A DNA stretch of 34,291 nucleotides from contig JAHDQY010000054.1 in assembly GCA_018433595.1 (NCBI GenBank), positions 1-34,291 on the forward strand. The letters are read 5' to 3'. A program made the translations under genes and the position numbers. The stretch is from Synergistales bacterium (GTDB lineage: Bacteria > Synergistota > Synergistia > Synergistales > Aminithiophilaceae). Within the stretch, counting starts at the first letter, position 1; every line of letters starts with the position of its first letter. The notes below the pieces were generated by a model. That model searched no databases, had not been told where the DNA came from, and saw nothing but the letters and a program-made list of their open reading frames with translations. Of this stretch, positions 7,180-34,291 are shown one piece after another.

Positions 7180-9450
7180 ATGCTGCTGGAAGGGACAAAG
7201 AAGCTGCCCCAGTTCCTGAACTGGGTCGAGACGCTGCCCGGCGAGGTGACGGCGCGGCGCCGTTTCCCCGCCCGGGAGCCTCAGTTCGCCCCCTGGCCGG
7301 AGCTGGATGACCGGCTGAAGGATTTTTTCGTCTCCTCGGGCATGAGGGGGCTCTACACCCATCAGGAGGAGACCTTCCGGCTCGCCCTGGCAGGAAAGAA
7401 CGTCGTCGTCGTGACGCCGACGGCATCGGGAAAGACGCTCTGCTACACTCTGCCCGTGCTGGAGTCGATCGCCCGGGAGAGCGCCTCGCGGGCCCTTTTC
7501 CTCTTTCCCACGAAGGCCCTGAGCCAGGATCAGCTGGCCTCTCTCTACGAGACGGTGACGGCCTGCGGCCTCGATGTGAGCACCTTCACCTACGACGGCG
7601 ATACGCCCCCCGCGGCGAGGAGCAAGGTCCGCGCCGCCGGGCAGGTGGTGATCACCAACCCCGATATGCTCCACACGGGAATTCTCCCCCATCACACCAA
7701 GTGGGTGAAGCTTTTCGAGAACCTGCGCTACATCGTCATCGACGAGCTTCACAGCTACCGGGGGATTTTCGGCTCCCACATGGCCAACGTCCTGCGGCGG
7801 CTGAAGCGGATCTGCGCCTTCTACGGATCGGATCCGACCTTCATCTGCACGTCGGCGACGATCGCCAACCCGAAGGAGCTGGCCGAGAGACTTCTGGGCG
7901 AGCCCGTCGAGCTGGTGGCGCGCAGCGGCGCCCCGCTGGGCGAACGTCAGGTGCTGCTTTACAACCCGCCCGTCGTGAACCGGTCTCTGGGGATCCGCCG
8001 CTCGTCGCTGCTTGAGACGAGCCGCATCGCCGGCGAGGCTCTGGCGAGCGGCATCAGCACCATCGTCTTCACCCGAAGCCGCATCAACGTGGAGCTGCTG
8101 CTGACCTACCTCCGACGGGAGCTGACGCGGCACAAGGTCGACCCGAACCGGATCGCCGGCTACCGGGGCGGCTATCTCCCGAACGAGCGCCGGGCCATCG
8201 AGCGGGGCCTGCGCAGCGGCGAGCTGCTGGGCGTGGTGAGCACCAACGCCCTGGAGCTGGGCGTCGACATCGGCTCGCTGGAGCTGGCCGTTCTCCACGG
8301 CTATCCGGGGAGCATCGCCTCGGCACGCCAGCAGATGGGGCGGGCCGGACGGCGCCAGGGGCTCTCGGCGGCGATTCTCGTCGCCTCCTCCTTCGCCCTG
8401 GATCAGTTCCTGGCCTACCAGCCGGACTACTTTTTCGGCGGCTCACCGGAGCGGGCCCGGATCAGCCCCGACAACCTCTACATCCTGGTCAATCACGTCA
8501 AGTGCGGCGCCTTCGAACTTCCCTTCCGCGAGGGGGAGCCCTTCGGGGACGCCGAGACGGCGGAGATTCTGACCTACCTGGAGCGCCAGGAGGTCCTTCA
8601 CCGTGCCGGGGGACGCTATCACTGGCAGGCCGACTCCTTCCCCGCCGAGGGATTGTCGCTGCGGAGCGCCACCAGCGAGAACTATGTCATCATCGACCGG
8701 ACCGAGACGGGCAGGCCCGTCGTCATCGGCGAGGTGGACCGCCCCAGCGCCCCCATGCTGATCCACCCCGAGGCGATCTATTTCCACGGCGGGAAGAGCT
8801 ACCAGGTGACGGAGCTGGACAGCGAGGGGATGCGCTGCTACGTGAAGGAGGTGGACGTCGATTACTACACCGACGCCGACCTGGCCGTGCGGCTCGAAGT
8901 GATCGACGAGTTCGAGAGCGGCTCCGCCTGGGGCTGGGGCGAGGTGCTGCTGGCGGCGCGTCCCACGGTCTACAAGAAGATCCGCCTCAACACCCACGAG
9001 AACGTCGGCTACGGCCACATCCATCTCGGCGAGGAGCAGATGCACACGACGGCCTGCCGCCTCTGCCTGCCCGAAGAGCTCTTTTCGGCCTGGGACGAGG
9101 ACGAGAAGAGCACGGCCCTGACCGGCCTGGCCCATCTGCTGCGGATCACGGCACCCCTCTTTCTCATGTGCGACCGGAGCGACATCCAGGTTCACAGCCT
9201 CGTCAAGGACCCCCATTTCGGACGGCCCACGATCTATCTCGTCGATAACTTTCCCGGCGGCGTGGGCCTGGCCGAGGGAGCCTGGCAGAGCCGCGAGAGG
9301 CTGCTCGACTCGGCCCGTGAGGCGCTTCTTGCCTGCCCCTGCGGCGAGGGGTGCCCGGCCTGCGTCGGCGCCCTGGGCCGGGGGATGGGGGCCAAGGAGA
9401 CGACGCGGCGCCTCGTCGACGATCTGACGGCTTGGGGACGATCGCTATGA
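7180..9450 (+). CDS. mrfA: DExH-box DNA helicase MrfA (YprA family) with C-terminal Cys4 zinc site
   Basis: Superfamily 2 helicase that in Bacillus subtilis works with the exonuclease MrfB to remove mitomycin C lesions independently of UvrABC. The protein has 756 residues, close to the roughly 750 of B. subtilis MrfA. Motifs in order: Walker A TPTASGKT (78-85), DELH (188-191), the SAT motif in FICTSATIANP, GVDIG, and motif VI QQMGRAGRRQG. The C-terminal DUF1998/MrfA zinc-binding region ends with CPCGEGCPAC (about 719-728), four cysteines fit to bind zinc. An ATG at 7153 is in frame, but AAGGAGG at 7167-7173 lies 6 bases before the ATG at 7180, so that start is used. Its stop overlaps the mrfB start (ATGA). 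A single-strand or generic repair helicase role is the alternative, but the pairing with mrfB is distinctive. Confidence 0.93.
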   Translation: MLLEGTKKLPQFLNWVETLPGEVTARRRFPAREPQFAPWPELDDRLKDFFVSSGMRGLYTHQEETFRLALAGKNVVVVTPTASGKTLCYTLPVLESIARESASRALFLFPTKALSQDQLASLYETVTACGLDVSTFTYDGDTPPAARSKVRAAGQVVITNPDMLHTGILPHHTKWVKLFENLRYIVIDELHSYRGIFGSHMANVLRRLKRICAFYGSDPTFICTSATIANPKELAERLLGEPVELVARSGAPLGERQVLLYNPPVVNRSLGIRRSSLLETSRIAGEALASGISTIVFTRSRINVELLLTYLRRELTRHKVDPNRIAGYRGGYLPNERRAIERGLRSGELLGVVSTNALELGVDIGSLELAVLHGYPGSIASARQQMGRAGRRQGLSAAILVASSFALDQFLAYQPDYFFGGSPERARISPDNLYILVNHVKCGAFELPFREGEPFGDAETAEILTYLERQEVLHRAGGRYHWQADSFPAEGLSLRSATSENYVIIDRTETGRPVVIGEVDRPSAPMLIHPEAIYFHGGKSYQVTELDSEGMRCYVKEVDVDYYTDADLAVRLEVIDEFESGSAWGWGEVLLAARPTVYKKIRLNTHENVGYGHIHLGEEQMHTTACRLCLPEELFSAWDEDEKSTALTGLAHLLRITAPLFLMCDRSDIQVHSLVKDPHFGRPTIYLVDNFPGGVGLAEGAWQSRERLLDSAREALLACPCGEGCPACVGALGRGMGAKETTRRLVDDLTAWGRSL

Positions 9451-10589
9451 CGCTCCTCTCCCGGCTGGAGACGATGCTGGGCCCGGCCCGACCCAGGGCG
9501 GAAGGGAAGGCTTCCCTGCGGGGCCTTCCCCCGGGGCGGTGGCTCGGCGACGGCGTCTACCTGATGGAGACGACGGTGGAGCTGGACGGGACGGCGACGC
9601 CGCTGCCGGACGGCTGGGGCGACAGCGAGGGAGCCTTCTGTTTCGATCTGGAGACGACGGGCCTGGCAGGCGGAACGGGGACCTACGCCTTTCTGGCCGG
9701 AGTGGGGCGAATCGAGGCCCGCACCCTGGAGGTGACACAGCTTTTTCTCACCTCCCCCGCCGCGGAAAAGACCTGGCTTGAGGCCCTCGACGAGACCCTG
9801 CCGCCCCGCTCGCCCCTGATCACCTACAACGGGAAGCGCTTCGACGTCCCGCTCATGGAGACGCGACGCATCCTCCACCGCAAGGAGCCCCTTGATCCCG
9901 CCGGTCATCTCGATCTTCTCCAGCTGGCCCGGGCCCTCTGGCGCAAGCGCCTCCCCAGCTGCCGCCTCGGCGAGGTGGAACACTCCGTTCTGGGTCTGCG
10001 CCGCAGCGGCGAGGACGTCCCGGGGAGCCTCGTGCCCGAGCTCTACCGGGACTTTCTGCATCGCGGCGACGCCTCCGTCCTGACAGGAGTCTTCTACCAC
10101 AACCGGATGGATCTGGTCGCCCTGGCCCTGCTTCGACAGCGGGTCGCCCGGATCCTGGCCGGAGGGAGCGACGACGGAGAGGAACTCGTCGCCGCAGGCG
10201 AGGCCTGGCGGAGGCGGGGACGGAACGACGAGGCTCTCCGCCTCTGGCACCTCGCCCGCGAGGCGGGGACCGCCGAGGCGCTGGAGTGCCTGGCCCTTGT
10301 CGCCAAGGCGGAACGCCGCTGGGAGGACGCCGTCGCCCTCTGGGAAGAGGCCCTCCCCGGAAGCTCCGACCCTTTCGTCGTCGCCGTCGAGCTGGCCAAG
10401 GCGTGGGAACACCGTCTCGGCAATCTGGACCGGGCCGGAGCCTGGGCCGAAGAGGCAAGAAGAATTCTCGACCGGCTACGCCCCCTCATGGACCCCTTTC
10501 AGTGGCGTCACCGGAGAGAGGCCATCGACCACCGCCTTCGGAGGGTCCGCGGGAAAGCGGCCTCCGCAACCGGAGGGAAGAGAGTATGA
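9447..10589 (+). CDS. mrfB: DEDDh exonuclease MrfB (YprB family) with C-terminal helical repeats
   Basis: Partner of MrfA: a metal-dependent nuclease of the ribonuclease H fold. It has 380 residues from the ATG at 9447, which overlaps the mrfA stop by 4 bases. The exonuclease core shows FDLETTG (D67, E69), YNGKRFDVP (D133) and YHNRMDL (H218, D222). These are the acidic residues and histidine of a DEDDh site, and the four-residue H-to-D spacing matches B. subtilis YprB/MrfB. The glycine-rich TGLAGGTGTYAFLAG loop after the first motif is a family signature. Residues about 240-370 form helix-turn-helix repeats of TPR type (AWRRRGRNDEALRLW and similar). Translational coupling supports a fixed stoichiometry with the helicase. 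Confidence 0.93.
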   Translation: MTLLSRLETMLGPARPRAEGKASLRGLPPGRWLGDGVYLMETTVELDGTATPLPDGWGDSEGAFCFDLETTGLAGGTGTYAFLAGVGRIEARTLEVTQLFLTSPAAEKTWLEALDETLPPRSPLITYNGKRFDVPLMETRRILHRKEPLDPAGHLDLLQLARALWRKRLPSCRLGEVEHSVLGLRRSGEDVPGSLVPELYRDFLHRGDASVLTGVFYHNRMDLVALALLRQRVARILAGGSDDGEELVAAGEAWRRRGRNDEALRLWHLAREAGTAEALECLALVAKAERRWEDAVALWEEALPGSSDPFVVAVELAKAWEHRLGNLDRAGAWAEEARRILDRLRPLMDPFQWRHRREAIDHRLRRVRGKAASATGGKRV

Positions 10590-10633
10590 TAGGCTGCATC
10601 ATCAGACTGATTCCACGCTGAGGAGGTAAAGAC

Positions 10634-12016
10634 ATGACCAACGTTGCGGCGCACATCTTTCGCGAATACGACATCCGAGGCCTTGCCGAGGAAGAGTTGA
10701 CGCCGAGGACGGTGGAGCTCATCGGCCGGGCCCTGGGAACCCGCCTCGTCCGTCAGGGAGTGAAGACGGCCACCGTCGGCGGCGACGTGAGACTCTCGAC
10801 GGAGAGGATCCGCGGGAATCTCCTTGAGGGGCTGACGGCGACAGGCCTTGACGTCATCGATATCGGCAAGGCCACCACGCCCCTTTTCTACTGGAGCCTC
10901 CACCACTGCGAGGCCGGCGGTGGCGTCATGATCACCGGGAGCCACAATCCCAAGGAGTTCAACGGCCTCAAGCTGGCCGAAGGGAAGGCGACCCTCTACG
11001 GCGGGCAGATCCAGGAGATCCTCGGAATGATCGTCGCCGACGATCTCGACGAGGCCAAAAGGCCGGGAGCGGTCACCAGGGCCGATATCGGCGACGCCTA
11101 TGTCAGGATGCTCCTTTCCAGGCTGGAGCTGAAGCGCCCCCTCAAGGTCGTCGCCGACGCCGGCAACGGCACGGCGGCCCTGATGATCGAGCCCTTCCTC
11201 AGGGGCCTCGGCTGCGACGTGATCCCCCTCTTCTGCGAGCCCGACGGGACCTTCCCCAACCACCATCCCGATCCGACGAAGCGGGAGAACCTCCAGGACC
11301 TGATCGCCGCCGTCCTCGAATCGGGAGCCGACCTGGGCGTCGGCTTCGACGGCGATTCGGACCGCATCGGCGTCGTCGACGACCGGGGACGGGTCATCTA
11401 CGGGGACACGCTGATGGCCCTGTACTGGCGGGAGATCCTCCCCAAGCATCCGGGGACGCCCTGCATCGTCGAGGTCAAGTCCTCCCAGGCCCTCGTCGAG
11501 GAGATCGAACACCTCGGCGGCAAGGTCATCTTCTACAAATCGGGCCACTCCCTGATCAAGGCCAAGATGAAGGAAGTGGACGCCCTCTTCACCGGCGAGG
11601 TCTCGGGCCACATGTTCTTCGCCGACGAATTCTACGGCTTCGACGACGCCTTCTACGCCGCCGGACGGCTGCTGCGCCTCCTGGCCGCCCAGGACCGGAA
11701 GCTCTCGGAGATCCTCGACACGATCCCCTCCTACCCCAGCACGGCCGAGACGCGCATCGACTGCCCCGACGCCGTCAAATTCGACGTCGTCGACGCCATC
11801 CGCGACAGCGCCCTCAAGGAGCACGAGGCCATCACCGTCGACGGCGTCCGCGTCCTCTACTCCGACGGCTGGGGACTGGTGCGGGCCTCCAACACCCAGC
11901 CCGTCATCGTCGCCCGCTGCGAGGGCCGGACCGAGGAGGCGCTGCGGCGGATCGAGAAGGACATGAAAGCTCGCATTCTCACCGCCGGCGTGGCCGATTT
12001 CGACTGGGAGTATTGA
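10634..12016 (+). CDS. Phosphomannomutase/phosphoglucomutase
   Basis: Alpha-D-phosphohexomutase interconverting mannose- or glucose-6-phosphate with the 1-phosphates, feeding nucleotide sugars for envelope polysaccharide and possibly UDP-glucose for the periplasmic glucans made by opgGH. It has 460 residues, the usual length of the AlgC-type enzymes. The N-terminal FREYDIRG, the phosphoserine loop ITGSHNPKEFNGLK (serine at about 102), the metal site DGDSDR (about 239-244), the sugar-specificity loop GEVSGHMFF and the C-terminal phosphate-binding RASNTQP are all present. GAGGAGG lies 8 bases before the ATG. It is 44 bases downstream of mrfB on the same strand. The bispecific PMM/PGM assignment is by family; substrate preference is not visible. 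Confidence 0.93.
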   Translation: MTNVAAHIFREYDIRGLAEEELTPRTVELIGRALGTRLVRQGVKTATVGGDVRLSTERIRGNLLEGLTATGLDVIDIGKATTPLFYWSLHHCEAGGGVMITGSHNPKEFNGLKLAEGKATLYGGQIQEILGMIVADDLDEAKRPGAVTRADIGDAYVRMLLSRLELKRPLKVVADAGNGTAALMIEPFLRGLGCDVIPLFCEPDGTFPNHHPDPTKRENLQDLIAAVLESGADLGVGFDGDSDRIGVVDDRGRVIYGDTLMALYWREILPKHPGTPCIVEVKSSQALVEEIEHLGGKVIFYKSGHSLIKAKMKEVDALFTGEVSGHMFFADEFYGFDDAFYAAGRLLRLLAAQDRKLSEILDTIPSYPSTAETRIDCPDAVKFDVVDAIRDSALKEHEAITVDGVRVLYSDGWGLVRASNTQPVIVARCEGRTEEALRRIEKDMKARILTAGVADFDWEY

Positions 12017-12041
12017 GGCCGGGCGATCGGGAGGCGCCGTC

Positions 12042-12482
12042 TTGAAGCGCCTCTTTCCTCCCCTTCTGCTGACGCTCGCCCTCCAGGCCCTGTCGGCGGC
12101 CATCCGCACCCTGGGGCTTTCCGTGACATGGAACGACGGCATCGCCTTCTCGGCCTTCAGAGCCTCGTTCCCCGTCGTCACCGCCGGGGTAGCGGGCCTT
12201 GTCGTCGTGACGCGGCTCTGCCTGAGGCGCCCCGGCCGCCTGACGGCACCGGGACTGACTCTCCTCTGGGGGGGAGCGGCGAGCAACGCCGCCGATCGGA
12301 TCATCCACGGCGCCGTCATGGACTACCTCCCCCTGCCGCTGCCGGAGGCGCTCCCCCTTCTGCCGGCCATGCTCCATCTGAACGGCGCCGACGTGGCTGT
12401 CATCGTCGGCGCCGCGCTGGTGCTGGCAAAGGGGTCAGGGAGGCCGAAGAGCGGGGTCAGACCTACACATTTGACAAGATGA
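12042..12482 (+). CDS. lspA: Lipoprotein signal peptidase (LspA), C-terminus supplied by a repeat element
   Basis: Inner-membrane aspartyl protease that cuts the signal peptide from prolipoproteins after lipid attachment. It has 146 residues and four hydrophobic segments. The family motifs WNDGIAFS (normally N-x-G-x-x-F-S), GGAASNAADRIIHG (catalytic Asp in N-x-x-D-R) and HLNGADVAV (second catalytic Asp) are present. The start is TTG with CGGGAGG 7 bases upstream; no ATG fits. The last 16 residues (GSGRPKSGVRPTHLTR) are read from the left arm and loop of the palindromic repeat beginning at 12431, and the stop codon itself (12480-12482) is in its loop. The catalytic core ends before this tail, so the enzyme is probably active. 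The protein is short, and the original C-terminus may have been replaced. Confidence 0.88.
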   Translation: MKRLFPPLLLTLALQALSAAIRTLGLSVTWNDGIAFSAFRASFPVVTAGVAGLVVVTRLCLRRPGRLTAPGLTLLWGGAASNAADRIIHGAVMDYLPLPLPEALPLLPAMLHLNGADVAVIVGAALVLAKGSGRPKSGVRPTHLTR

Positions 12483-12549
12483 TTCCTTTTGTCAAATGTG
12501 TAGGTCTGACCCCGCTCTTCGGCCTCCCTGACCCCGCTCTTCGGTCTCC
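12431..12549. repeat. Palindromic repeat element, copy 1 (47-bp perfect arms plus 22-bp tandem repeats)
   Basis: Arms 12431-12477 and 12489-12535 are perfect inverted repeats of 47 bases around an 11-base loop. The inner part contains GGGGTCAGACCTACAC followed by TTTGACAA. The right side continues as two 22-base tandem units, 12506-12527 and 12528-12549, differing at one base and built on CTGACCCCGCTCTTCGG. It fills the space between the convergent lspA and dppF genes, enters lspA, and ends two bases before the dppF stop codon. A transcript from either strand would fold into a very long hairpin, so it may act as a bidirectional terminator or mRNA 3'-end protector. A related copy is at 18259-18371. 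The form suggests a REP-like element moved by a RAYT-type (Y1) transposase, but none is in the window. Confidence 0.93.
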
Positions 12550-12551
12550 GC

Positions 12552-13526
12552 TTAATAGAGGAAGCAGGCGACGAAGTGGTCGCCGCCGACATCGACAAAG
12601 GGAGGTTCCTCTTTTCTGCACCGCTCCATGACCTTGGGACAGCGGGTGTGGAAACGGCAGCCCGCAGGCGGGTTGATCGGCGAAGGGACATCCCCTTCAA
12701 GGAGGATGCGTTTCCGCCTTTTCGTGGGGTCCGGCAGAGGGATGGCCGAAAGCAGCGCCTGAGTGTAGGGATGGAGGGGATTGGCGAAGAAGTCGCTCTT
12801 GGCGGCCAGTTCGACGAGACGCCCCAGGTACATGACGGCGATGCGGTCCGAGATGTGGCGGACGACGGAGAGGTCGTGGGAGATGAAGAGGTAGGTGAGC
12901 TTCATCTCCTCCTGGAGGTCCTTGAGAAGGTTGAGGACCTGGCTCTGGATGGAGACGTCGAGAGCCGATACGGGTTCGTCGCAGACGACAAAGCGGGGCT
13001 TGAGGGCCAAGGCGCGGGCGATGCCGATGCGCTGGCGCTGGCCGCCGGAGAATTCGTGGGGATAGCGGAAGCGGTGCTCCGGTCTGAGGCCGCACTTGGC
13101 CAGGATGTCGCAGACGTAGTCATCCAGTTCGGAGCCGCGGGAAAGGCCGTGATACCTGACGGCCTCGCCGACGATGTCCCGGACGGTCATGCGCGGGTTG
13201 AGGCTGCCGTAGGGGTCCTGGAAGATGATCTGCATCTGGCGGCGCAGTTCCTTGGGATTTTTGTGCAGGATTCTGCCAACGTCGCAGCCGTCGAAGTAGA
13301 CCTCCCCCGCCGTGGGTTCCAGCAGGTGAAGCAGGGTCCGACCCGTGGTGGTCTTGCCGCAGCCCGATTCGCCCACAAGCCCCAGCGTCTCCCGTTCGTT
13401 GACGAAGAAGGAGACGTCGTCGACGGCCTTGACGTAGCCGGCGGCGCGGCGGAAGACGCCTTTCCGCAGCGGGAAGTATTTCTTGAGGCCCCTGACGGTG
13501 AGATAGTGCGAGCCCGGCTCAATCAT
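12552..13526 (-). CDS. dppF: Dipeptide/oligopeptide ABC transporter ATP-binding protein (DppF/OppF family)
   Basis: Second ATPase subunit of the peptide importer encoded upstream. It has 324 residues with Walker [10 protein letters not shown], the Q-loop region [13 protein letters not shown], signature FSGGQRQR, Walker [12 protein letters not shown] and the C-terminal oligopeptide-transporter domain [15 protein letters not shown] typical of OppF/DppF. An upstream ATG (13559) would overlap dppD much more. The ATG at 13526 has AAGGAGGG 9 bases before it and overlaps the dppD stop by 8 bases, so it is used. It is the last gene of the operon; its stop abuts the palindromic repeat. Dpp versus Opp naming is by convention, since the peptide length handled is not readable from sequence. 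Confidence 0.92.
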
Positions 13527-28715: not shown

Positions 28716-29717
28716 TCAGTTCTTGATGGCCTGAAGAAGAAGGCCGGCCTTGAAGAGGAGGCGCGGGATGGTCTGGGTCTCCTTTTCGCGGCGGATGAAG
28801 ACAGCCAGGTTCTCGTCGGGGACGTCAGCTCCCCTCTCAAGGGGGCTGAAGGTGACGGGACGGCCCTCGACGAGGTCGAAGAGGGTCCATCGCCCCTCTT
28901 CGTCGCGGAAGTAGCCCTTGGCGCGGACGACATCTTCCGGCAGACCTTCGAGGGCCTCACGGAAGGCGGAAGGCTCCCCCGTCCAGGTGACGCTCTGGGA
29001 GAAGAGTTCGTCGGGCGGCGCCAGGTGCGACTCGGCATCGTTCAGAGCCGCTTCGATGTAGGCCTCCCACTCCTCGGCCGAAGGCAGATCCCAGTCTTCG
29101 GCCGTGACGGGACGGGCCGCCTCGGACCGCAGGAGGGACCAGTCGATACGGCCGAAGGAGGTCTCGTAGATGGGCGCTTCGGCGTTGAGCTCGCGCAGCT
29201 GGGCCTTGACGGCCTCGGCCGTCCTGTCGTCGACGAGGTCGCGCTTGTTGACGACGAGGGCCGTCGCCGTTTCGACCTGACGGTTGACGGCGTTGAAATG
29301 ATCGGCCCAGTCGCGGAAGCGGTCGGCGTCGATGACGCAAAGGCTGCCCTTGAGTTCGTAGAAGCGCCCCAGGGGACCGACGGAGAGGTCCCGTTTCATG
29401 TCCCGCGTGTCGGCGACGCCGCTGGCCTCGATGAGCAGGATCGTCGGCTCGTACTCCCGGGCGATGGTGTGGAGACCGCGCATGAAGTCGCCCTTGGCGC
29501 AGGCGCAGAAGATGGAGCCCCTGTTGATCTCGACGATCTCCAGGCCGGCGCGGCGGATGATTTCGCCGTCGACGCCGACGCGACCGAACTCGTTCATCAT
29601 GACGACGAGGGTTTCACCGTCGGGGCGGTTTTCGAGAAGATGGCGCAGCAGCGTCGTCTTGCCGCTGCCGAGAAATCCCGCGAGGAGATAGACGGCGCAA
29701 CCTCTTCTGTTTTCCAT
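28716..29717 (-). CDS. COG0523 (CobW/G3E) family GTPase
   Basis: A 333-residue G3E GTPase of the kind that loads metals or prepares metal cofactors. The landmarks are Walker A GFLGSGKTT (14-22), NEFGRVGVDGEI, IEASGVAD (Walker B region), NKRD (base specificity) and a C-terminal CobW-C-like domain from about residue 230. The usual G-C-x-C-C metal motif is changed to SIFCACAKGD: two cysteines (71 and 73) in a CxC arrangement. AAGGAGG lies 11 bases before the ATG. It is 33 bases downstream of the class III aminotransferase and is the last gene of the corrinoid-activator operon. In that setting a role in cobalt, corrinoid or iron-sulfur handling is plausible. HypB- or UreG-like nickel work is less so, as no histidine-rich stretch is seen. 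Confidence 0.9.
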   Translation of the reverse strand: MENRRGCAVYLLAGFLGSGKTTLLRHLLENRPDGETLVVMMNEFGRVGVDGEIIRRAGLEIVEINRGSIFCACAKGDFMRGLHTIAREYEPTILLIEASGVADTRDMKRDLSVGPLGRFYELKGSLCVIDADRFRDWADHFNAVNRQVETATALVVNKRDLVDDRTAEAVKAQLRELNAEAPIYETSFGRIDWSLLRSEAARPVTAEDWDLPSAEEWEAYIEAALNDAESHLAPPDELFSQSVTWTGEPSAFREALEGLPEDVVRAKGYFRDEEGRWTLFDLVEGRPVTFSPLERGADVPDENLAVFIRREKETQTIPRLLFKAGLLLQAIKN

Positions 29718-29750: not shown

Positions 29751-31106
29751 CTAGGACCAGCCGCGGGCGAAGCGGAGGGCCTCGTCGCCGATGGAGCCGG
29801 CCCGGTAGTCCTCAAGGGCAAGGCGAAGGATCTCCAGCCCCCGAAGGGCCTCCTCTTCGGTGATGACCAAAGGCGGCTGGATGCGCAGCACGTTGTCGCC
29901 GAGGAAGGTCAGGACCAGCCCCCGCTGCCAGCAGCGGAAGCAGACCCTGGCGCAGGCGTCGCGGTCGGAGTTGCCGTCGCCGTCGACGATCTCCTGGCCG
30001 ATGGTGAGCCCCAGGCCGCGGCAGTCACCGAGAAGAGGGAGGGTTTCCCTCATCGCGGACAGCCTCTCCCGGATGAGGTCTCCCAGGCGGCGGCTCCTCT
30101 CGACGAGCCGTTCCTCCTCGATGACGTCGAGGGTGGCCAGGGCGGCCCGGCAGCAGACGGCGCCCCCGGCCAGGGTGAAGATATGGCCCGGGTCGGAGAG
30201 GGCGTCGGCGATCTCCGATCGCATGACGAGAGCGCTCAGGGGCATGCCCGAGGCGATGGCCTTGCCGAGGACGACGATGTCGGGAACGACGTCGAAGTGT
30301 TCGATGGCGAACCAGCGCCCCGTCCGGCCGAAACCCTGCTGGACCTCGTCGGAGACGAAGAGGATTCCCTCGCGGCGGCAGAGATCGGCCAGGGCCCGGA
30401 CGTAACGGGCGGGCGGAATCATCAGTCCCGCATCGCCGGCGATGGGTTCGAAGAGGACGGCCGCCACCTCCTCGGCAGGAAGGTGGAGGCGGAAGGCCTC
30501 CTCGATATCCTTGAGGCACTCCAGATCGCAGCTTTCCTCCCTTCGGCCGAAGGGGCAGCGGGCGCAGATCGGGTAGGGGAAGACGTGGAATCCGGGAACC
30601 ATGGGGCCGAGGCCGCGCCGCATGTTGAGGCTGATGGCCGAGGCCGAGAGAGCCCCGTAGGTGCTGCCGTGATAGGCCGTCCGAAAGGAGATGATCTCGC
30701 TGCGTCCGGTGTACTTCCTGGCGAACTTGACGGCTCCGTCGATGGCGTCGGACCCGGAAAGGCCGTAGGCGACCTTCTTGGGAAAGGATCCGGGCGTGAC
30801 GGCACAGAGACGTTCGGCCAGTTCGACGGACGACTCCTCGTACATGTAGCCGATGGTGTAGCACAGCAGCGACCGGGCCTGTTCGGTGACGGCCTCGACG
30901 ACTCGGGGGTGGCAGGTGCCCGTGTTGAGGGAGGCGGCCCCGGCCGAAAAGTCGATGAAGCGATTGCCGTCGACATCCTCCAGGACGGCGCCGCGTCCCG
31001 ATTTCACCACCAGAGGATAATAGGGCGACCGGGCGCAGCCCGAGATGACCCTGCCGTCCCGTTCGACGAGATCCAGGCTGCGGGGGAAGGCGTCAAGACC
31101 GTTCAC
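29751..31106 (-). CDS. Class III PLP-dependent aminotransferase or amino acid racemase
   Basis: A 451-residue fold-type I PLP enzyme. The landmarks are GLSGSDAIDGAVKFARKYTGR (116-135), AYHGSTYGALSAS (144-156), FVSDEVQQGFGRTG with PLP-binding Asp253, and LGKAIASGMPLSAL with Schiff-base Lys282. Between them, YPICARCPFGRREESC holds cysteines 181, 184, 193 and 197. This insert is shared with archaeal 4-aminobutyrate/ornithine aminotransferases and the related broad-specificity amino acid racemases and isoleucine 2-epimerases. Transamination of an omega-amino acid or racemisation of a free amino acid are therefore both possible. The start is GTG with AGGGAGG 6 bases before, overlapping the stop of the preceding gene (GTGA). 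It sits inside the corrinoid-activator operon. Confidence 0.9.
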   Translation of the reverse strand: MNGLDAFPRSLDLVERDGRVISGCARSPYYPLVVKSGRGAVLEDVDGNRFIDFSAGAASLNTGTCHPRVVEAVTEQARSLLCYTIGYMYEESSVELAERLCAVTPGSFPKKVAYGLSGSDAIDGAVKFARKYTGRSEIISFRTAYHGSTYGALSASAISLNMRRGLGPMVPGFHVFPYPICARCPFGRREESCDLECLKDIEEAFRLHLPAEEVAAVLFEPIAGDAGLMIPPARYVRALADLCRREGILFVSDEVQQGFGRTGRWFAIEHFDVVPDIVVLGKAIASGMPLSALVMRSEIADALSDPGHIFTLAGGAVCCRAALATLDVIEEERLVERSRRLGDLIRERLSAMRETLPLLGDCRGLGLTIGQEIVDGDGNSDRDACARVCFRCWQRGLVLTFLGDNVLRIQPPLVITEEEALRGLEILRLALEDYRAGSIGDEALRFARGWS

Positions 31107-31855
31107 GGTTTTCCTCCCTTGGCCGTCAGGTGACAGCCGCCGAGCTGATAATAGAGGCAGCGGGCACCGAGGCAGGGCTCGCAGCGCAAGGGGTCCTTCC
31201 GAGTCCCGTCGACGCCTTCACCGATGGCGATGAAGGAGCACTGGGACTTGCGGGGATAGAGCATGGAGGCCCCCCGCGATTCGACGCCGATCGTCTCGGA
31301 AGTGCGCCCCAGGGACTCGATCCCTTCCATCAGGGTTGCGTTGACGCCGCCGAAGCCGGGGTAGAATTCGTCGATGAGGGCAAGGCCCTTCGGTTCGGCC
31401 AGCCCTTCCCGGAACCACTGAAGGACAGCGTCGTGGATGGCGAAAAGGGCCATCGAGCCGGCCACGTCGAGGAGAAGCCCCTTCATCCGCTCTCCGTTGG
31501 TGGCGGTCAGCTCCGAACTCCTGCGCTCCAGCTCTCTGCCGATGGTCCAGACGGCCATGGCCACCGTCCCTTCAGGACGCCGTTGAAGCGGCAGGGCTTC
31601 ACCGAAGGTCTTCCGGAAGGTCTCGTCCGTCATGACGACGATCCGAGCCGCCGGTTCGAGGCAGGCCTCTTCGGCCCCGTCTCTCCAGTAGCGGACGAAT
31701 TCCTCCACGTTCTGGAGGTGACGCTCTCCCAGCTGCCGGTAATGCTCCTTCAGGGGGGAGAAATCGACGGTGACGGCGGGAGCTTTCGTGAGGACGACTT
31801 TTTCCGGATCGGGGCCGGTCAGGTCGGAGTAATGGATCGCGATCGATTTAGCCAT
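31103..31855 (-). CDS. MetH activation-domain-like protein with C-terminal four-cysteine cluster
   Basis: A 250-residue protein resembling the S-adenosylmethionine-binding reactivation domain of cobalamin-dependent methionine synthase, here free-standing. Residues 125-212 match the pattern: KGLLLDVAGSMA, DEFYPGFGG (the R-x-x-x-G-Y loop of MetH, with the Arg missing), then SETIGVESRGASMLYPRKSQ, equivalent to the IG-x-x-L-T-E-S-x-x-M-x-P stretch. The extreme C-terminus carries cysteines 225, 228, 233 and 241 (C-x2-C-x4-C-x7-C), suited to an iron-sulfur cluster or zinc. The ATG at 31855 has GGGAGG 5 bases before it and is preferred to one further upstream. It is 20 bases after the RACo-like gene. 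A corrinoid-protein helper is the likely role; the partner is not seen. Confidence 0.82.
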   Translation of the reverse strand: MAKSIAIHYSDLTGPDPEKVVLTKAPAVTVDFSPLKEHYRQLGERHLQNVEEFVRYWRDGAEEACLEPAARIVVMTDETFRKTFGEALPLQRRPEGTVAMAVWTIGRELERRSSELTATNGERMKGLLLDVAGSMALFAIHDAVLQWFREGLAEPKGLALIDEFYPGFGGVNATLMEGIESLGRTSETIGVESRGASMLYPRKSQCSFIAIGEGVDGTRKDPLRCEPCLGARCLYYQLGGCHLTAKGGKP

Positions 31856-31875
31856 TTTAACCTCCCTGTTCCTCC

Positions 31876-33483
31876 TCAAAAGATCATGGCCCTGACGAAA
31901 CGCTTCTGGAAGTCTGAAAGCGTCGACAGCTCGATGTAGTTCATCCTCTCGGCGATCCGGTGGGTCTTCTCGTAAAAGGAAGCCGAGGCCAGGGCCATGG
32001 CGGCGCCGAGGCCGGCCGTGTTGCGGACGCTGCGGATCTTCTTGAGTCCCACCGGAGGCAGGAGGCCGACGGCGACGGCGCTTTCATGATCGATGTAGTT
32101 GCCGAAGGCCCCGGCGAGAAGCACCTCGTCGACGGCCTCCACGGCAATGCCCGCCCGTTCCAGGAGGACCTCGACGCCGACGCGGATGGCGCCCAGGGCA
32201 AGCTGCACCTCCCGGATATCTTTCTGGGTGAGGTAAACCGGATGAGCCCGGTCCGTCAGGAGAACGCGGACGATCCCCTGGGGATCGCGGTCCATCTGTT
32301 CGCAGAACCAGGGATCGCCGCACCGGTCGGGAGCGACCATCCGTCCCCGCCTGTCGACGATGCCGGCCCGAAGAAGGACGGCGACGGCATCGACGAGACC
32401 GGAGCCGCAGATCCCCCGGGGGTGAGCGTCGGCGATGGTCCGGACGACGAGGCGGTCCTCGTCGAGGAAGACCCGCTCGATGGCCCCGGAGGCGGCCCTC
32501 ATGCCGCCGGCGATGCGGGCCCCCTCGAAGGCGGGGCCGGCGGCGGCGGCACAGCAGTAGAGGGCGTCGCGGTTGCCGAGAACGATCTCGTTGTTGGTCC
32601 CGATGTCGATGAGAAGGCGCATGGCCGGCGAATCGGCCATGGCCGTGGCGGCGACGCCGGCGACGATATCGGAGCCGACGTAGCCGGCGACGTTGGGCAG
32701 AAGCTTGACGCGCCCGTCAGGGCGGATTTTCAGTCCCAGCGAGGCGGCCTCCAGAGGAGGCATGGCAAGATAGGCGGGACGGTAGGGGCTGACGCCGATC
32801 GACGCGGGCGAGACGCCGGCGAAGAGGTGCTGGACGACGGTGTTGGCGGCGATGGTCACCTGAGTGACGGCATCGGCGGAGAGACCGTTTTTCGCCGTCA
32901 GGGCGGCGAAGGCCTCGTTGAGGCCGTCGATGAGGACGGCCTGCAACCGTCTCAGCCCCCCGTCGGACGCCGAGTAGGCGATGCGGGAGATGACATCGTC
33001 GCCGTAGGGAATCTGGGGATTGAGGAAGGAGACGACATCGACGACGCGCCGTCCCTCAAGATCGAGCAGGTAGGCGACGACGGTGGTGGTGCCGATGTCG
33101 ACGGCGACGCCGAAACCGGCGCCGTCGGGGGCCCACTGGACGGTCTCGTCGGAGAGGTCGGCAAGAATCCTGGAGCCTTTCGTCTCCACCTCGTCGACGA
33201 CGAAAACCTCTCCCGGTCCCGTCACCGTGGCGGAACAGGCCAGACGGAGGCCACGGAGAAGAGAGTCCTCGCCGAGGACTCTCTTCTCCGTTTCCGTCGG
33301 GGGGGCGACGCAGTCGCGGGCCCGAACGCGGCACTTGCCGCAGATGCCGGAACCTCCGCAGGGGCGGGCGATGTTGACGCCCGCCCTCGCGGCGACATCG
33401 TGGAGCGTCTCGCCCTCACGGGCCCAGGCGATGGTGCCGGAGGGCAGAAAGGTGATCTGAAAAAGGTCTTTACTCTCATTCAT
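31876..33483 (-). CDS. RACo-like corrinoid activator: N-terminal [2Fe-2S] ferredoxin plus ASKHA (DUF4445) domain
   Basis: A 535-residue ATP-driven reductive activator that returns corrinoid proteins from Co(II) to Co(I). The N-terminal ferredoxin domain has C42, C48, C51 and C83 in the plant-type [2Fe-2S] spacing (PCGGSGICGKC). After a linker comes the ASKHA ATPase fold: AVDIGTTTVVAYLLD (phosphate 1), LLIDIGTNNEIVLG (phosphate 2), GICGSGLVDAV and LLAGAFGNYIDH. The length fits the shorter members; acetogen RACo is about 630 residues. GGAGGG lies 9 bases before the ATG. It is 39 bases downstream of nhaC and followed by the MetH-activation-like gene. No methyltransferase or B12-binding protein is in the window, so the client must be elsewhere. 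Confidence 0.92.
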   Translation of the reverse strand: MNESKDLFQITFLPSGTIAWAREGETLHDVAARAGVNIARPCGGSGICGKCRVRARDCVAPPTETEKRVLGEDSLLRGLRLACSATVTGPGEVFVVDEVETKGSRILADLSDETVQWAPDGAGFGVAVDIGTTTVVAYLLDLEGRRVVDVVSFLNPQIPYGDDVISRIAYSASDGGLRRLQAVLIDGLNEAFAALTAKNGLSADAVTQVTIAANTVVQHLFAGVSPASIGVSPYRPAYLAMPPLEAASLGLKIRPDGRVKLLPNVAGYVGSDIVAGVAATAMADSPAMRLLIDIGTNNEIVLGNRDALYCCAAAAGPAFEGARIAGGMRAASGAIERVFLDEDRLVVRTIADAHPRGICGSGLVDAVAVLLRAGIVDRRGRMVAPDRCGDPWFCEQMDRDPQGIVRVLLTDRAHPVYLTQKDIREVQLALGAIRVGVEVLLERAGIAVEAVDEVLLAGAFGNYIDHESAVAVGLLPPVGLKKIRSVRNTAGLGAAMALASASFYEKTHRIAERMNYIELSTLSDFQKRFVRAMIF

Positions 33484-33522
33484 CGTTGGCAGCCCTCCGG
33501 CACGAAAGAAGATAAGCCTCGG

Positions 33523-34291
33523 CTACTGTACCGTTGCGGCAGACGTCTCGTCGTCGTCGTGACGGAGGAAGTCGAAGCTGATGTCGGTCCGCTTTTCGAC
33601 CTTGTCCTCGCCGTCCTTGCCCCAGTAGATGCCGATGCCGAGATAGGTCAAAACGGCGGCGACGATGGGGTTGAGGATGTTGAGGAAGCAGTAGGGAAGA
33701 TACTCCAGCGTCGGAACGCCGAGAGCGCTGCTCTGGAAGGCGCCGCAGCCGGTCCAGGGAACGAGGACGGCCGTCATGGTGCCGCAGTCCTCAAGGGTCC
33801 GGGAGAGCATCCGGGGCGAAAGTCCCGAACGGGCCACGGCGCTGTTGAACATGCGGCCGGGAACGACGATGCCCAGATACTGGTCGCCGAGGAAAACGTT
33901 GCCAATGAAGCTCGAAGCCATGACGAGAGAGACCAGGCCCCCCACCTTTCTAACCTTCAGGAGCAGAGGCGTCAACATGGCCTCGAGGTAGCCGCAGCGC
34001 TCCATGACGCCGCCGAGGACGAGGGCGATCATGATCAGCGAGAGGGACCACATCATGCTGTCGATGCCGCCTCGGGCGAGGAGATCGGAGAGAAGCTCCC
34101 CCACCTCGGTGGCCGTTTCGGGGGCCATCGAAAGCCCGTGCTGGGCCAGAAGGGCCGCGGCCCCGTCTCCGGCCTCGGCGAATTCGGCGGCCACCGTCGG
34201 CGAGTAGCCGTAGTGAATGGCCGTGAGGACGTCGGAGAGGGAATGACCGTTGACAAGGGACATGAAAGAGGCGGCGAAGGTCCCGGCCATC
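33523..34291 (-). CDS. nhaC: Na+/H+ antiporter NhaC family (5' end beyond window)
   Basis: The C-terminal 256 residues of a polytopic membrane protein; the start is beyond the right edge. Residues such as MMWSLSLIMIALVLGGVMERCGYLEAML, shortened here to the segment SLIMIALVLGGVMERCG, then FIGNVFLGDQYLGIVVPGRMF, RTLEDCGTMTAVLVPWTGCG and EYLPYCFLNILNP, are characteristic of NhaC-type antiporters, including members that exchange malate or lactate with Na+/H+. A charged cytoplasmic tail of about 35 residues ends the protein. It is upstream of the RACo-like gene on the same strand with 39 bases between, so probably cotranscribed. The ion or substrate handled is not certain from this half. Confidence 0.88.
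   Translation of the reverse strand, partial: MAGTFAASFMSLVNGHSLSDVLTAIHYGYSPTVAAEFAEAGDGAAALLAQHGLSMAPETATEVGELLSDLLARGGIDSMMWSLSLIMIALVLGGVMERCGYLEAMLTPLLLKVRKVGGLVSLVMASSFIGNVFLGDQYLGIVVPGRMFNSAVARSGLSPRMLSRTLEDCGTMTAVLVPWTGCGAFQSSALGVPTLEYLPYCFLNILNPIVAAVLTYLGIGIYWGKDGEDKVEKRTDISFDFLRHDDDETSAATVQ

Follow-up and report, generated by a model that had tools for sequence, protein, structure and literature searches.

Why should a bacterial locus encode two proteins for the reactivation of corrinoid enzymes and no corrinoid protein on which they could act? The question is raised by one end of contig JAHDQY010000054.1 (C31) of a Synergistales bacterium (GenBank assembly GCA_018433595.1). The whole contig, at 34,291 bp, is the window analyzed here, and the genome to which it belongs comprises 2.53 Mb in 72 contigs and is 99.65% complete. 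On the reverse strand, this end of the window carries the C-terminal part of an NhaC/ArcD-family transporter (PF03553, 106 bits; 33523..34290, open at the contig end), followed by RACo, an ATP-driven reductive activator of corrinoid proteins (31876..33483), a free-standing protein of 258 amino acids with a MetH-activation fold (X258; 31103..31879), a class III pyridoxal phosphate (PLP) enzyme with an aminotransferase fold (PF00202, 349 bits; 29751..31106) and a COG0523/CobW GTPase, a probable metal chaperone (PF02492, 135 bits; 28716..29717). A preliminary description had named these same five genes from the letters alone, and domain matches bear the calls out. The locus is probably the downstream part of a corrinoid methyltransfer operon of eight genes, which the contig end has cut in two.

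The absence of a corrinoid protein is an artefact of the contig break. A search of the genome for B12-binding domains returned three strong places, one of them on contig C28, where a corrinoid protein with both B12-binding_2 and B12-binding domains (PF02607 and PF02310; L037:6068-6709, L labels denoting extracted stretches with their own numbering) lies directly upstream in operon order. It is followed by an MtmB-family protein of 463 amino acids (L037:6777-8168), a UroD-thioredoxin protein (L037:8255-9640) and the 5' part of nhaC, which runs into the end of C28 (L037:9784-10934). C28 and C31 share their terminal 354 bp at 98.3% identity inside nhaC (33938..34291 of the window, reverse strand, equivalent to L037:10581-10934). 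Furthermore, the full length of each contig aligns, at 95.5-95.6%, with neighboring regions of the complete genome of Synergistota bacterium strain L-13 (CP074691), in which all eight genes follow one another on the same strand. Given the contig overlap and the synteny, the idea that the corrinoid partner is missing is rejected; it was true of the window only. A corrinoid protein-methyltransferase pair just past the window, which the preliminary description had named as what would refute its reading, is present on C28 of the same genome and in complete relatives.

Gene content, order and conservation, family membership, the absence of pyrrolysine and the fold of X258 were established by computation; Synergistota genomes are labelled G, strain L-13 being G003. 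With small changes among relatives, the row reads corrinoid protein, MtmB-like protein, UroD protein, NhaC, (PLP enzyme), RACo, X258, (COG0523), and some 17 further genomes of Synergistota have it as well. Most of the row is held in G002, G044, G153, G145, G144, G180, G183, G075, G184, G185, G031, G024, G084 and G017, and partial rows are found in G146, G076 and G148, where the contig or the extracted stretch ends or the order differs. The neighborhood comparison that had been proposed as a check thus found clear synteny. In the window, the RACo and X258 genes overlap by 4 bp, as do those of X258 and the class III enzyme, and identical overlaps occur in a relative; because of these overlaps, the three genes form one unit. 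Counting the present genome, 11 have the PLP enzyme within the row, and COG0523 copies are linked in several relatives.

The first METHYLTRANSFERASE of the row is a non-pyrrolysine MtmB, related to the pyrrolysine enzyme MtmB but no longer containing that residue. The family model PF05369 covers residues 6-458 of its 463 (247 bits, cut-off 25), and the protein matches the Methanosarcina MtmB structure 1l2q with an E value of 3e-47. When aligned with 1NTH and with one true pyrrolysine MtmB from Synergistota, the orthologous group has Val, Met, Leu and Asn in place of Pyl202, E229, E259 and Q333, the last three of which we take to be the pyrrolysine-contact residues of the MtmB structure. A pyrrolysine enzyme is ruled out by these altered residues, by the lack of any in-frame TAG or internal stop in the gene, and by the lack of a PylB above the family cut-off in the genome. 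A betaine methyltransferase of the MttB/MtgB type is likewise ruled out in this genome, where no MttB-family protein (PF06253) was found. The genome encodes one MtmB, one RACo and three corrinoid proteins.

Proteins above the PF05369 cut-off occur in 25 of the 188 Synergistota genomes, two of which (G160 and G164) encode a true pyrrolysine MtmB with an in-frame TAG. In both of these (L100:6743-8140 and L099:7374-8771, respectively), a corrinoid gene lies upstream, and putative pylS, pylB, pylC and pylD, as read from their N-termini, lie directly downstream. Divergent MtmB-like proteins, 22-23% identical to the main group, are encoded in G171 (L114:10061-11452) and G170 (L115:15247-16638), where the neighboring genes encode a corrinoid protein, a permease and, judging from the N-terminus only, what may be a homocysteine S-methyltransferase-like protein. 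Another MtmB-like protein of this divergent kind (27%) stands in G130 (L116:8944-14840) in a row with a corrinoid protein, a RACo of 653 amino acids and a UroD protein. In G183, a second pair of corrinoid and MtmB-like genes, 69% identical to the first, is found directly downstream of the main row (L104:5215-7347); its neighbors are a peptidase-like gene and a transporter of another kind, and it is possibly a paralogue with another substrate.

The only non-pyrrolysine MtmB with a demonstrated function is MtqB, described in 2026, which acts on tetramethylammonium and choline; according to its authors, the remaining non-pyrrolysine members of a tree of 1,061 MtmB sequences are of unknown function (PMC13044021). 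No paper tying Synergistota to an MtmB-type function was found in the literature searched. By description, the MtqB/MtqC system of Methanococcoides methylutens resembles the present row in having a non-pyrrolysine MtmB homologue, its own corrinoid protein and a second methyltransferase of the MtbA/MtaA type, but that system is archaeal and methanogenic and its activator is RamA (PMC13044021), whereas the rows in Synergistota add RACo, X258, NhaC and a racemase-like gene. The MtmB/MtmC/MtbA system of Methanosarcina (1nth/1l2q) draws on the same families, namely PF05369, B12-binding and an MtaA/MtbA-type UroD, and differs from the present one in its pyrrolysine, in E229, E259 and Q333, none of which is found here, and in its UroD protein, whose counterpart here ends in a thioredoxin-like tail and is without the zinc His. 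The row offers a conserved bacterial case of non-pyrrolysine MtmB with a transporter, an amino-acid enzyme and an activator side by side, and its presence in the cultured strain L-13, with a complete genome, makes the substrate directly testable.

From this arrangement, we infer a pathway in which the transporter would import an N-methylated amino compound, most likely of the quaternary or betaine type, and the MtmB-like enzyme would methylate the corrinoid protein at its Co(I). From there, the UroD-thioredoxin protein would hand the methyl group on, probably to a thiol, and the racemase-like enzyme would handle the demethylated amino acid. RACo, aided by X258, would spend ATP on reducing any corrinoid that had slipped to Co(II). 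As the substrate class, a quaternary or N-methyl amino compound is somewhat favored. The preliminary description had suggested a pathway for amino acids or methylamines that depends on corrinoid and had not been described, and this part of it is broadly supported because a non-pyrrolysine MtmB adjoins a PLP enzyme resembling amino-acid racemases.

The individual proteins agree with such a pathway to different degrees. The second METHYLTRANSFERASE is a UroD protein of the MtaA/CmuA-like kind (172 bits), with a thioredoxin-like tail that contains a CxPC motif. The His-Cys-Cys zinc site of MtaA/MtbA (SCMT) is not found in the UroD-thioredoxin proteins: the zinc His position is Phe in all 13 of them, and both zinc Cys residues are kept, with an extra Cys beside one. 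A thiol may be the methyl acceptor. With regard to tetrahydrofolate as an acceptor, PF00809 matches in the genome were considered, and these comprise MetH, two strong matches that look like dihydropteroate synthases and one weak match. The full-length NhaC homologue of strain L-13 scores above the cut-off of the NhaC model TIGR00931 (420 bits). The class III PLP enzyme seems racemase-like by similarity: its nearest solved relatives, and all five of its Protein Data Bank (PDB) matches at E ≤ 1e-100, are amino-acid racemases or epimerases, and the NCBIfam equivalog cut-offs were not reached.

Several points weigh against the proposed operon and its function. The UroD protein lacks the zinc His of MtaA, so its methyl acceptor is uncertain. 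NhaC-family substrates are too varied for a single one to be predicted, and the evidence for the substrate consists of gene context and family. Several loci that are complete in other respects lack the racemase-like gene and the COG0523 gene (the PLP enzyme is absent, for example, from G184, G185, G031 and G024), and these two genes are therefore accessory. In addition, a strong G+C-rich hairpin followed by UCUUUUU lies between uroD and nhaC (L037:9663-9712) and is also present in strain L-13; as a possible terminator or attenuator, it may cause the row to be transcribed in two parts. A second stable stem-loop is found between the mtmB-like gene and uroD (L037:8190-8235). Simple promoter and terminator scans were at chance level in the C28 half of the row, where the simple scanner missed the hairpin between uroD and nhaC.

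The activator of the row contains all three domains of the Carboxydothermus RACo, Fer2 (31.5 bits), Raco_middle and RACo_C_ter (PF17651, 186 bits, and PF14574, 263 bits), and matches PDB entry 3zyy with an E value of 1e-94. It shares the architecture of that protein (AcsV), a [2Fe-2S] domain, a middle domain and an ASKHA domain, but is encoded in a methyltransferase operon rather than with CO dehydrogenase/acetyl-CoA synthase, and is paired with X258. The latter matches no Pfam or NCBIfam model, PF02965 included. Likened to a MetH activation domain at first sight, X258 has since been found to deserve the comparison: TM0269 (1j6r) is matched, with an E value of 4e-10, by a profile built from 23 homologues, and its AlphaFold2 model, with a mean predicted local distance difference test score (pLDDT) of 87, has as leading Foldseek matches only MetH activation domains (1j6r, 8sse, 1k7y and 1msk, probability 1.00). 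The four cysteines noted earlier at its C-terminus are conserved, C233, C236 and C241 being invariant and C249 nearly so. Among the 188 genomes, 29 places score over 210 bits with the X258 profile, and every one is next to a RACo gene: in 26 cases the two genes are direct neighbors, in one case another gene separates them, and in two they are divergent at about 3.3 kb. MtmB is traceable in 21 of these 29 genomes (in two only as a partial or contig-end fragment) and not in the other eight. This complete linkage, together with the eight genomes lacking MtmB, suggests that RACo and X258 are a portable pair.

The strongest surviving alternative from the preliminary description is a general repair kit, in which RACo and X258 would act in trans on a number of corrinoid enzymes to reactivate them, the MetH of the same genome included, with the MtmB operon as one use among others. 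This MetH, at 860 amino acids, has no activation domain, and neither PF02965 nor a second X258-type protein was found in the genome, where a single RACo stands against three corrinoid proteins. For other genomes the idea has support: in G053, G007, G054 and G012, as in the related cluster of G008, corrinoid proteins, including short MetH frames of 802-866 amino acids, are encoded elsewhere, and trans action is plausible in the first four because the 10 kb or so to each side of their RACo-X258 pairs contain no corrinoid protein. For the present genome it retains some probability, given a MetH without an activation domain. However, X258 is found in every genome that has a close MtmB orthologue, and in most of these the two share a row; in other Synergistota activation proteins of the S-adenosylmethionine (SAM) type, with an RxxPGY motif, are found beside metH (L051). 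As an account of this locus, the repair kit is a serious but less likely candidate.

A different methyl donor, a sulfur or selenium compound such as methionine or S-methylcysteine, is improbable. The mlp gene clusters, the model for such a reading, resemble the present row in combining a UroD-family methyltransferase, a corrinoid protein and a RACo-like activator with no folate methyltransferase in the row (PMC10418091), and a neighbor resembling amino-acid racemases would suit such a substrate. Those clusters, however, have several UroD proteins instead of one, and their described core is without the MtmB-family enzyme found here; the characterized enzymes of that family, MtmB and MtqB, act on amines.

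The preliminary description had also seen two reactivation chemistries side by side, ATP-driven reduction by RACo and reductive methylation by a SAM-type fold. The fold itself stands, and X258 shares with TM0269, a free-standing MetH activation domain, the PGxG and PRK motif region. The claim of a second chemistry is weakened by the motif R-x-x-P-G-Y, which is common to TM0269 and the metH-linked homologue of L051, and whose arginine presumably contacts SAM in MetH, as in the E. coli structure. In all 21 aligned RACo-linked homologues of X258, Glu replaces this Arg and the Tyr at the motif end is lost; the window protein, with Glu171 at the SAM-site position, reads E-x-x-P-G-x, and the remote RACo-linked homologue of L052 has neither the Arg nor the Tyr. 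X258 further differs from TM0269 in its extra Cys-rich tail and in its link to RACo instead of metH. It is improbable that X258 truly performs reductive methylation with SAM and so provides a second reactivation route independent of the first. More probably, X258 assists RACo rather than running a second, SAM-based route, and what looked like two chemistries is more likely a single system driven by RACo, whose partner has ceased to use SAM. Together, RACo and X258 could conceivably form a two-part corrinoid reactivase, in which a MetH activation domain that has abandoned SAM acts as docking or redox partner of the ATP-driven reductase; in Synergistota the pair would serve a new non-pyrrolysine MtmB pathway for a methylated amino compound and, in trans, MetH proteins without an activation domain of their own. 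This proposal is put forward with some reserve. No description of a RACo linked to a MetH activation domain was found in the literature, and the occurrence of this fold without the SAM arginine beside RACo points to a reactivation partner of which no account was found. The remaining reading, an orphan activation locus with no partner nearby, had in its favor that no corrinoid gene lies inside the window, and is refuted by the contig overlap and synteny to the point of having almost no probability left.

Other loci related to these systems were observed in the same comparison. Strain L-13 encodes a second, long RACo (873 amino acids) beside a weak X258-like gene (L053:8037-10658), as does G001. 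On the reverse strand of L052 (G008:C7:24001-44000), at 7727-13468, genes for COG0523, RACo, an X258-like protein and a UroD-thioredoxin protein follow one another. MtmB is absent from that genome, no strong corrinoid gene is close by, and the locus fits the title of the preliminary description, a corrinoid-activation operon without a corrinoid protein. An orphan MtgC-like corrinoid protein with no adjacent methyltransferase is encoded at G000:C66:53199-53864 (L035:9199-9864), flanked by apparent sugar-phosphotransferase and regulator genes. Near the MtmB row of L102, L103, L105, L106, L110, L111, L112 and L113 lies a gene for a regulator-like protein of about 980-1010 amino acids with the common N-terminus MKYKARFLGxPELF, and a similar regulator-like gene, encoding 1011 amino acids, is found on contig C40 of the genome studied here (L036:16098-19133).

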